This document shows positions 8,151 to 33,447 of a stretch of DNA of 57,507 nucleotides, one piece after another. Made by a program: the position numbers and the translations under genes. The notes below the pieces were generated by a model, which saw only the letters and a list, made by a program, of their open reading frames with translations, did no database searches and had not been told where the DNA came from. Source of the stretch: Gemmatimonadetes bacterium SCN 70-22 (GTDB lineage: Bacteria; Gemmatimonadota; Gemmatimonadetes; Gemmatimonadales; Gemmatimonadaceae); NCBI GenBank assembly GCA_001724275.1, contig MEDZ01000021.1:30025-87531 (forward strand), written 5' to 3'. Within the stretch, counting starts at the first letter, position 1; each line of letters begins with the position of its first letter.

Positions 8151-8290
8151 GGAGGGGTACGGAGGGGCACGGAGGGGCACGGAGGGGCACGGAGGGGCAC
8201 GAAGGGGCACGAAGGGGCACGGAGGGGCACGGAGGGGCACGGAAGGGCGCTGAAGGGCGCTGAAGGGCGCTGAAGGCCACTGGGAGGCGC
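8151..8290. repeat. 10-bp tandem array, about 14 units
   Basis: The array consists of ggaggggcac units with drift to gaaggggcac, ggaagggcgc and tgaagggcgc. The exact 10-base period is kept across 140 bases, so each unit is about one helical turn. It begins 22 bases after the permease stop. It has no spacers and is not a CRISPR. Confidence 0.85.
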
Positions 8291-29116: not shown

Positions 29117-29200
29117 CGCGAGCCGCTGACGCGAGCCGCTGAGGGGCGCCTGAGGGGCGCCTGAGGGGCGCCTGAGGGGCGCCTGAGGGGCGCCTGACGC
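29112..29200. repeat. 13-bp then 11-bp tandem array carrying stop codons
   Basis: Two copies of gctgacgcgagcc (29112-29137) pass into five perfect tgaggggcgcc units (29140-29194). The gene's TGA is in the first unit, and every unit carries TGA. With a period of 11, all frames are closed. Confidence 0.85.
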
Positions 29201-30851: not shown

Positions 30852-30951
30852 CCACCGCCGTGTGACATACATATCTTGCCCCCCCCTCGAGTCGACGCTA
30901 GGGTAGAGCGTCCTGCCAATCCCGGCATGGCCGAGCAACGTTGGAGGCAAC

Positions 30952-31143
30952 ATGCGAAACGCATTCGCGGGGTTGATGACGGTGGTGCTTGCGGGGCTCC
31001 TGCTCGCGGGAGCACCAATGCTGACGGGGGCGCCGGCGAACGCCGCGTGCACGGACGACGGGTGTCCGAACGCCAATCCGAACGTGGACTGCTGGACGAA
31101 TGGGCAGTGGTATTACAACCTCTGCAACCAGGCCTGCATCTGA
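30952..31143 (+). CDS. exported Cys-rich 63-residue peptide
   Basis: A clear GGAGG Shine-Dalgarno precedes the ATG. The first 31 residues are a signal peptide (LMTVVLAGLLLAGAPMLTG, ending APANA). The mature part is about 32 residues with five Cys (ACTDDGC, VDCWTNGQWYY, NLCNQACI) and no cleaved tail. I know no named family. The arrangement of a short exported Cys-rich peptide directly before a six-bladed propeller gene resembles the NVEALA-type peptide/propeller pairs of Bacteroidetes, although the NVEALA motif itself is absent. An intercistronic hairpin follows. It is probably abundant, disulfide-bonded and extracytoplasmic; its function is unknown. Confidence 0.75.
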   Translation: MRNAFAGLMTVVLAGLLLAGAPMLTGAPANAACTDDGCPNANPNVDCWTNGQWYYNLCNQACI

Positions 31144-31152
31144 AGGTGAACT

Positions 31153-31187
31153 GCGCGGGCGAGTCGCCCCTGTCGACGCGCCCGCGC
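31153..31187 (+). promoter_or_regulatory. intercistronic hairpin between peptide and propeller genes
   Basis: GCGCGGGCG (31153-31161) can pair with CGCCCGCGC (31179-31187). An alternative GGGCGA/TCGCCC hairpin overlaps the first arm. The element may act as an attenuator or partial terminator that sets peptide well above propeller expression. Confidence 0.45.
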
Positions 31188-31243
31188 CACACCAGAGGCC
31201 CCGAAGCGCCCCCACACGCCCACATCGAACTGGAGGATCCACG

Positions 31244-32398
31244 GTGCCGATCTGTCGCCGCGCCAGCCTCGTCGCATGCGTCGTGATTCCGCTCCTGCTG
31301 GCGTGGAGGGCCGCTCCCGCGCAATCGCGGTGGCGTCTTTCCGATCCGGTAGTCGCGATCGGTCGAGGCGAGAGTGCGGGATTTGGAAATGTCGCTGGGG
31401 CCCTTCGCCTTGCAAACGGCGGCATCATCGCCGCCGACGGTCAGACCCTCGAACTTCGCTACTTCGACGCCAGTGGGCGACTCGTCGCACGGGCCGGGCG
31501 GCGAGGTGATGGCCCGGGGGAGTTCCGATCGATCCGCGCCCTGTTGCGGTGCGGGGGCGACTCGGCATTCGTATACGATCCGATCCTCTTGAGGGTCTCG
31601 GTATTCGCGCCGTCTGGTCGATACGTTCGCGCTATCGATCTGCGGGCGGCGGGGATCGGCATTCCTCCATACGAGGCGTACTGCAACAGCCGCGGCATGT
31701 TGGTATTTGTCAACCGGTCGCCGTCACCGCCCGCGGCGATCGGCCCGCGACGTCCGATGGTTGAACTGACGGCTCTCCCCACATCCGGCTCGGGACTCAA
31801 GTCGTTCGGGCGCTCCCCCGCCAGCGAACGCTATTTCACCGGACGGGAGGACATGCCGCGCCCGCTTGGCGCGCTCACACTCGTTGCCGTCGGGCCCTCG
31901 GGTATCCACGTGAGTACCGGGCGAGATGAAGCTGGCGAGCGCCGCGTGGAGATCCGAAGAATGCGGGCCGACGGGACCCCGCGCCGTCCCGCGATCGTGG
32001 ACCTCCCGCGCGCGCGAGTGACGAGTCGACAGCTGCAAACCTTCATCGACGCGCAGGTCGACGCGCAGCGCAGCCGGTCGGACGGCGCACGCGTGCGCAG
32101 CCTGCTGGAATCGTTGCAGTACCCCGATGAGTATCCGCCGCTCGCCCGACTCCTCGCCGGCGCGGGCGGTGACCTCTGGGCATCCGAGTATCCGATCCCG
32201 GGCGCCGATTCGGTCCGCTGGCACGTGATCGCGCCGGATGGAGCGTTGCGCGCCACGCTCATGGCCCCCGTGGCGCTCGACATCGTCGATGTCGGCGACG
32301 GCGCACTGCTCGGGGTCTGGCGCGACGACATGGGGGTGCCGACCGTGCGGGTGCATCGGTTTGGCGCGAGCGGTGGGAGAGCTGACGCTCGTCGCTAG
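31244..32398 (+). CDS. secreted six-bladed beta-propeller protein
   Basis: A 384-residue protein starting at GTG after a strong GGAGG site. It has a signal peptide (ASLVACVVIPLLLAWRAAPA). The body has the repeats of NHL/BF3164-like propellers: GALRLANGGIIAADGQTLEL, YFDASGRLVARAGRRGDGPG followed by EF, RVSVFAPSGRYVRAID, EYPPLARLLAGAGGDLWASE and WHVIAPDGALRATL. The RxGxxGDGPGEF motif is typical of this class. It follows the Cys-rich peptide in an apparent two-gene unit. It may bind or present the peptide outside the cytoplasm, by analogy with Bacteroidetes pairs; this is inference. No lipobox is present. Confidence 0.78.
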   Translation: MPICRRASLVACVVIPLLLAWRAAPAQSRWRLSDPVVAIGRGESAGFGNVAGALRLANGGIIAADGQTLELRYFDASGRLVARAGRRGDGPGEFRSIRALLRCGGDSAFVYDPILLRVSVFAPSGRYVRAIDLRAAGIGIPPYEAYCNSRGMLVFVNRSPSPPAAIGPRRPMVELTALPTSGSGLKSFGRSPASERYFTGREDMPRPLGALTLVAVGPSGIHVSTGRDEAGERRVEIRRMRADGTPRRPAIVDLPRARVTSRQLQTFIDAQVDAQRSRSDGARVRSLLESLQYPDEYPPLARLLAGAGGDLWASEYPIPGADSVRWHVIAPDGALRATLMAPVALDIVDVGDGALLGVWRDDMGVPTVRVHRFGASGGRADARR

Positions 32399-32550
32399 GG
32401 GCGGGGCGTGTGGCGACGCGGGGCCCCGAACCGACAATGGTTCAAATGACCCAAGCCATCCCCTTCGTGTGGTCGTAGTCTCCTCGCACGGCGCCGCGGA
32501 GGTCGCGCGCTGGCCTCCACGGTGAGACGACCGCAACGAAGGTGAGCGAA

Positions 32551-33447
32551 ATGGCAGCGCGAACGATATTTCGGTGGGGTGGGCGGATCGTGGCAGGGCT
32601 CCTGGTGCTGGTGCTCCTCGGCGCCGCCTCCGCGTATGGCGTCTCCGAACGCCGCGGACGCCGGACGTACGACGTCCCCGAGCACTCGGTCACCGTCGTC
32701 TCCGACTCAGCGACGATCGAGCGCGGCCGTCACCTGGCGACGATTCGCGGCTGCAACGAGTGCCATGCCCCGAACATGGGGGGGAGGGTCATGGTCGACG
32801 ACCCGGCCATCGGGCGCCTCGTGAGCACCAACCTCACGAATGGGCGCAAGGGCGGCGCCCTCTCCGATCGTGACTGGGAGCGCGCGGTACGGCACGGGGT
32901 GCGCGGCGATTCCACCCCGCTCACCGTCATGCCGGCGCACGAGTTCACGGGCTTCGCCGACGAAGACCTCGCCGCGATCATCGGGTGGACGCGAAGCTTG
33001 CCGTCGGTCTCCGATTCGCTTCCGACCACGCGCGTCGGTCCGCTCGGGCGCGCGCTGCACGCGGCGGGAGAACTCGTCCTGTATCCCGCCGAGCGAATCG
33101 ATCACGAGGCGGTGCACCCCGGGCGAGTCGTCCCCGCCCCGGATGCGCCGTACGGCAAGTACATGGCGGCCGGGTGCATCGGATGCCACGGCGCCACCTA
33201 CTCGGGCGGCAAGATCGCGGGCGCCCCGCCCGAGTGGCCAGCGGCCGGGAATCTCACGCCGACGGGGATGACAGCATACGACGAAGCGAGCTTCATCGCC
33301 GCCCTGCGCACCGGGAGGCGTCCCGACGGGACCGCGATCCGTCCGCCGATGGACCCGAAGCTGATGGGGGCGATGACCGACGTGGAGCTGAAGGCGGTCT
33401 GGGCCTTCCTCAGAACGCTCCCGCCCAGGGCGACGGGCGAGCGATAG
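32551..33447 (+). CDS. membrane-anchored di-haem cytochrome c
   Basis: A 298-residue protein with an N-terminal membrane anchor (IVAGLLVLVLLGAASAYGV) and two cytochrome c domains. The haem sites are RGCNECHAPNMGG near residue 70 and AAGCIGCHGATYSGG near 209. Candidate axial Met residues follow each (TVMPAHEF near 129 and RPPMDPKLMGAM near 270). It would transfer electrons in the periplasm, resembling the cytochrome subunits of dehydrogenases. The ATG at 32551 is preceded by AAGGTG; a GTG at 32542 is an alternative. A CcdC-like gene follows 158 bases downstream. Confidence 0.85.
   Translation: MAARTIFRWGGRIVAGLLVLVLLGAASAYGVSERRGRRTYDVPEHSVTVVSDSATIERGRHLATIRGCNECHAPNMGGRVMVDDPAIGRLVSTNLTNGRKGGALSDRDWERAVRHGVRGDSTPLTVMPAHEFTGFADEDLAAIIGWTRSLPSVSDSLPTTRVGPLGRALHAAGELVLYPAERIDHEAVHPGRVVPAPDAPYGKYMAAGCIGCHGATYSGGKIAGAPPEWPAAGNLTPTGMTAYDEASFIAALRTGRRPDGTAIRPPMDPKLMGAMTDVELKAVWAFLRTLPPRATGER

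Follow-up and report, generated by a model that had tools for sequence, protein, structure and literature searches.

Pairs of a short exported peptide and a secreted beta-propeller are found in Bacteroidales, where NVEALA peptides (PF14055) are encoded directly upstream of propellers of the BF3164/TolB_like type (PF15869). The peptides are short, variable and Cys-bearing, and their loci can form arrays of several pairs that include a thioredoxin-fold gene. Both arrangements occur on two Phocaeicola plasmids, in which NVEALA peptides stand ahead of BF3164 lipoproteins or other propellers: one plasmid carries a single pair, and the other carries six NVEALA peptides together with propellers and one thioredoxin-fold gene. 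Searches of an open full-text library for papers that name NVEALA peptides or deal with such pairs in Gemmatimonadota gave none, and the papers naming related accessions describe no such pairs in their titles and abstracts. Two further groups of proteins are relevant for comparison, namely the DUF5128/NHL six-bladed propellers (PF17170 and NHL structures of the TRIM2 type) and the DsbA-like thiol oxidoreductases (PF13462, PF01323).

A gene pair of similar layout is located in the window, a stretch of 57,507 nucleotides from Gemmatimonadetes bacterium SCN 70-22. The features of the locus and two short tandem repeats found elsewhere in the window are listed in Table 1.

Table 1. Positions of the features of the peptide/propeller locus and of tandem repeats in the window.
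Feature	Position	Strand	Basis and remarks
Conserved upstream block	30873-30945	+	Alignment of window, G053 and G026, three species of the genus; retained even without the peptide ORF
Shine-Dalgarno site of the peptide gene, GGAGG	30943-30947	+	Sequence
Exported Cys-rich peptide gene, 63 aa	30952-31143	+	ATG at 30952, stop at 31141-31143
Hairpin between the peptide and propeller genes	31153-31187	+	Predicted folding; no T-run after it
Shine-Dalgarno site of the propeller gene, GGAGG	31232-31236	+	Sequence
Secreted NHL/TolB-like beta-propeller gene, 384 aa	31244-32398	+	GTG start; DUF5128 below cutoff, NHL structures
Gene with two CxxCH motifs, directly 3' of the propeller	32542-33447		Sequence; retained beside the propeller in G026 too
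Tandem repeat, 10-bp GGAGGGGCAC x9.8	8151-8248		Short, perfect or near-perfect
Tandem repeat, 11-bp CTGAGGGGCGC x5.4	29139-29197		Short, perfect or near-perfect

The N-terminus of the peptide, judged by its sequence, resembles a signal peptide over about residues 1-31. The mature part, ACTDDGCPNANPNVDCWTNGQWYYNLCNQACI, comprises 32 residues (about 32-63) starting from Ala32 and contains five Cys at positions 33, 38, 47, 58 and 62. No match to the peptide was obtained in Pfam (up to E 5) or NCBIfam, and the ORF is present in a single copy in the genome. Two other readings of the peptide were considered and rejected. A Kazal-like core, suggested by C-x10-C-x3-C together with NG and Y, matched nothing in Pfam and no Kazal structure, and its pattern is not kept in relatives; a lipoprotein reading of the Ala-Cys pair disagrees with the sequence, in which this Cys is located far past the hydrophobic core and no lipobox is present.

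The signal peptide of the propeller ends in APAQS, and the mature part of the protein has two Cys. The likeness of the propeller to DUF5128 is weak, with a score of 17.2 bits (E 0.003) under the family cutoff of 22.9, and its likeness to NHL propeller structures (TRIM2 and related proteins) is clear, with an E-value of 1.5e-10. The term six-bladed is thus used here by assignment to these families, and the AlphaFold model of the propeller, made from a two-row alignment, is too poor for counting blades (mean pLDDT 38). The model of the peptide, also from a two-row alignment, was unusable (mean pLDDT 57). The preliminary description of this DNA had reported an exported, five-Cys peptide of 63 residues ahead of a secreted propeller, with strong Shine-Dalgarno sites on both genes, and the ORFs, the signal peptides and the two GGAGG motifs agree with it. 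The gene upstream of the peptide gene, oriented divergently from it, reads as a fumarate hydratase. The conserved upstream block probably comprises a promoter and a 5' leader, and the gene with two CxxCH motifs, by virtue of these motifs, probably encodes a c-type cytochrome.

The locus was compared with its counterparts in two other genomes. G053 contains the same pair, with both proteins 94% identical to those of the window. The peptide genes differ at seven positions, four of them third codon positions, and the dN/dS ratio of about 0.4 is derived from these very few changes. Since a 94% identical copy is present in G053 and the differences are mostly in third positions, the peptide ORF is not a chance reading frame. 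The sister species G026 has the upstream block, the hairpin and a 70% identical propeller, and the peptide ORF is absent, with only an apparent remnant of its leader at the corresponding position. The peptide was probably lost in G026; its gain in the species of the window and in G053 is less likely. The propeller can therefore exist without the peptide, and the pair is not obligatory, as most propellers of the window type also have no adjoining peptide. Such propellers have many paralogues, with between 11 and 31 matches in each of six genomes, and no relatives of the window propeller were found at E 1e-6 in the plasmid collection.

A search with the window peptide alone (tblastn) yielded mostly chance matches beyond G053, and profiles were required. 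The peptide profiles A2, A3 and A4 were searched, by sequence only, against about 400 genomes at a time and detected a divergent peptide family across the class. The last of these searches gave 14 new ORFs with a signal peptide and a Cys-rich tail. A propeller was located within 1.5 kb, upstream or downstream, at 13 of these 14 loci, as against 0 of 28 loci with chance matches (Fisher P about 5e-10), a contrast that is still large when it is considered that related genomes share ancestry and the effective sample is smaller. Pairwise similarity of the window peptide to the class-wide set is weak; the peptide has all the features by which the pair family is defined here, namely a signal peptide, a spacer, a first Cys after Ala, an odd number of Cys and an adjoining propeller. 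The retention of a short ORF beside homologous propellers, on which the preliminary description had staked its proposal beforehand, is thus observed across the class.

The 1.6-kb regions upstream of 129 propeller-family loci were scanned with a strict ORF filter (signal peptide, Shine-Dalgarno site, at least three Cys, 40-120 aa and low Arg content). Nine matches were obtained on the coding strand, meaning that most propellers are not accompanied by such a peptide, and the lone match on the other strand is part of a nearby cluster of peptide, DsbA and propeller genes. Applied to the window and to 20 longer loci, 655 kb with both strands counted, the filter gave ten matches, all adjoining propellers; as these regions are enriched in propellers, this count alone is not a measure of linkage. 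The arrangement of the genes varies: G306 and G087 have tandem peptides ahead of one propeller, and in G001 a peptide stands beside a DsbA gene with no propeller. In G013 (L209:1468-3141), a gene reading like signal peptidase I comes after the peptide and propeller genes and could encode a dedicated processing enzyme. More odd-Cys exported ORFs, beyond the profile matches, are located on propeller-bearing contigs in G184 (L336) and G189 (L337).

The similarity of the peptides tracks the similarity of their propellers, with a Mantel r of 0.66 for 22 pairs. Within the family of the window alone, r is 0.58 (P 2e-4), with several of the loci being paralogues. Some of this correlation can stem from the common ancestry of entire loci, itself a form of joint inheritance of peptide and propeller. 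In addition, on a 2.9-Mb contig of G193 (L304:1501-2706), a peptide precursor and a propeller are encoded in one ORF. The first 67 aa of its product align without gaps to the peptide precursor of G302, and the propeller part then follows without a signal peptide of its own. A simple loss of a stop codon would have retained the signal peptide of the propeller, and the ORF, barring an assembly error, therefore represents a genuine fusion of two genes. The fusion implies that the peptide and the propeller act in the same compartment.

An odd Cys number is an old trait: the window-like members of the peptide family (n = 30, about 16-21 groups after clustering) have 3, 5, 7 or 9 Cys beyond the signal peptide, always an odd number in this set, a tally that may be somewhat biased by the profile seeds, all of which were odd-Cys. 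The three-Cys members lack both C4 and C5, and the G193 fusion lacks C1 as well. Cys residues seem to be gained or lost pairwise, with one left unpaired. This pattern of paired loss suggests that C2 pairs with C3 and C4 with C5 (C38-C47 and C58-C62 in the window), and that C1, the Cys of the Ala-Cys motif (C33 in the window), is unpaired.

A second set of peptides has an even number of Cys (4, 6, 8 or 10), usually with an adjoining DsbA-like gene, an assignment supported by Pfam. A DsbA-like gene lies within 500 bp of 7 of the 10 even-Cys peptides vs. 1 of 34 odd-Cys peptides (P 2e-5, for an odd/even split drawn after the data had been seen). As to the other three, two, both in G097, lie in one cluster with a DsbA-like gene, and the one in the genome of the window is followed by a CYYC protein and propellers. 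An exception is an 8-Cys ORF of G306 (L322:3849-4052), which lacks both neighbours. Even-Cys exported peptides with adjoining DsbA-like genes are exemplified by loci in G126 (L243), G070 (L126), G042 (L128) and G001 (L245), and the gene order in G126 is peptide-DsbA-peptide-DsbA-propeller-propeller. In contrast, no DsbA-like gene is located beside the window locus or nearly all odd-Cys loci. The cluster in the genome of the window (G000, L236:13927-16863, contig C27) consists of a 4-Cys exported peptide, a CYYC thioredoxin-like lipoprotein, which has no Pfam match, and then propellers.

The preliminary description had also drawn a parallel with the layout of NVEALA pairs while regarding the peptide sequence as different. 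Both parts of this comparison hold, with the layout seen in Phocaeicola and PF14055 membership absent. The window peptide might be a drifted true NVEALA peptide, representing the Bacteroidales system in another phylum. The order and size of the parts are the same, with the peptide directly before a TolB-like/BF3164 propeller in the window and its relatives; a thioredoxin-fold gene is sometimes present, and the partner propellers in other families match PF15869 TolB_like. Nevertheless, we consider such an origin unlikely. PF14055 did not score over cutoff in any of 101 Gemmatimonadota genomes, while the control search was over cutoff in 1 of 14 named genomes, among which Bacteroides was the one expected. 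No NVEALA match to the window peptide or its relatives was obtained with hmmscan, a leader ending in NVEALA is absent from the window peptide and 12 relatives, and profile-profile alignment with hhalign covered the signal peptide alone, with a probability of 9.8%. The Gemmatimonadota peptides instead have a motif of their own, Ala-Cys after the spacer, and odd Cys numbers, class-wide. By analogy, the window pair would work like an NVEALA/propeller pair, yet these tests do not place its peptide among the NVEALA peptides. The same row of genes, with a small peptide containing Cys and Trp, a propeller and a two-CxxCH protein, also resembles a quinoprotein-type amine dehydrogenase (QHNDH or MADH), of which the peptide would be the small subunit (gamma in the quinohaemoprotein enzyme, QHNDH) and the propeller and the c-type cytochrome the others. 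This identity is scarcely credible, as the lack of a Pfam match of the peptide extends to the small subunits, Trp is absent from several relatives, the Trp-Cys cofactor residues are not conserved, and in G026, which has no peptide, the cytochrome gene still adjoins that of the propeller.

The intergenic hairpin bears on whether the product of the short ORF has a function at all, since the ORF could serve as a leader peptide that controls the propeller by attenuation and yields a functionless product. The hairpin stem is predicted in three species, those of the window and G053 and, in a longer form, G026, with z-scores of -1.7 in the window and -3.1 in G026. The hairpin noted in the preliminary description is thus confirmed, while the potential attenuator role suggested for it is unsupported: no T-run follows, and the structure persists in G026 without the peptide ORF. 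The mature Cys pattern is conserved class-wide along with the signal peptide and the spacer, and the peptide is fused to the propeller in G193, which makes a functionless leader very improbable. The hairpin may adjust the relative amounts of peptide and propeller. The odd Cys had been taken to suggest dimers, a modified Cys or a link to the propeller. A covalent two-chain complex, in which the odd Cys is disulfide-bonded to the propeller, accords with the odd number itself and with the loss of the first Cys in the G193 fusion; however, the mature propellers of G324, G377, G412 and G013 contain no Cys, and that of the window has two. A disulfide to the propeller is accordingly ruled out as a general rule and appears improbable, which leaves dimerisation, bonding to another partner or chemical modification as uses of the odd Cys.

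Taken together with the class-wide pairing, the fusion and the co-inheritance, the standing of the locus as a candidate for an undescribed secreted system is strengthened. The gene pair, its export signals, the linkage across the class, the co-inheritance, the fusion and the Cys parity are seen in the sequences, and the disulfide pattern, the binding and the role are proposed from them. We consider it probable that this is a class-wide system of Gemmatimonadota, in which a Sec-exported Cys-rich peptide and a cognate secreted propeller act outside the cytoplasm. The small peptide, with its variable Cys-rich mature part, would be made together with the propeller as a precursor in which a short spacer separates the signal peptide from a mature part stabilised by disulfides. 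The C2-C3 and C4-C5 pairs would stabilise this part and leave C33 available for homodimerisation, for another partner or for modification, and the propeller would bind the peptide non-covalently. The most likely role would be that of a diversifying extracellular recognition module, with the peptide serving as a secreted signal or a small antagonist and the propeller as its receptor, carrier or immunity-like protein. More tentatively, it may be a new two-part recognition system in which every one of the diverging odd-Cys peptides is matched to a propeller of its own and retains an unpaired Cys for a particular covalent purpose (a dimer, a modification or a tether), with a parallel even-Cys branch that has its own DsbA.

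No family model in Pfam or NCBIfam covers the short peptide genes, and pairs of a peptide with a propeller, now found in two phyla, appear to form a theme that is still unexplained. The pairing, the fusion and the Cys parity make it testable whether each propeller binds its own peptide and what purpose the unpaired Cys serves.
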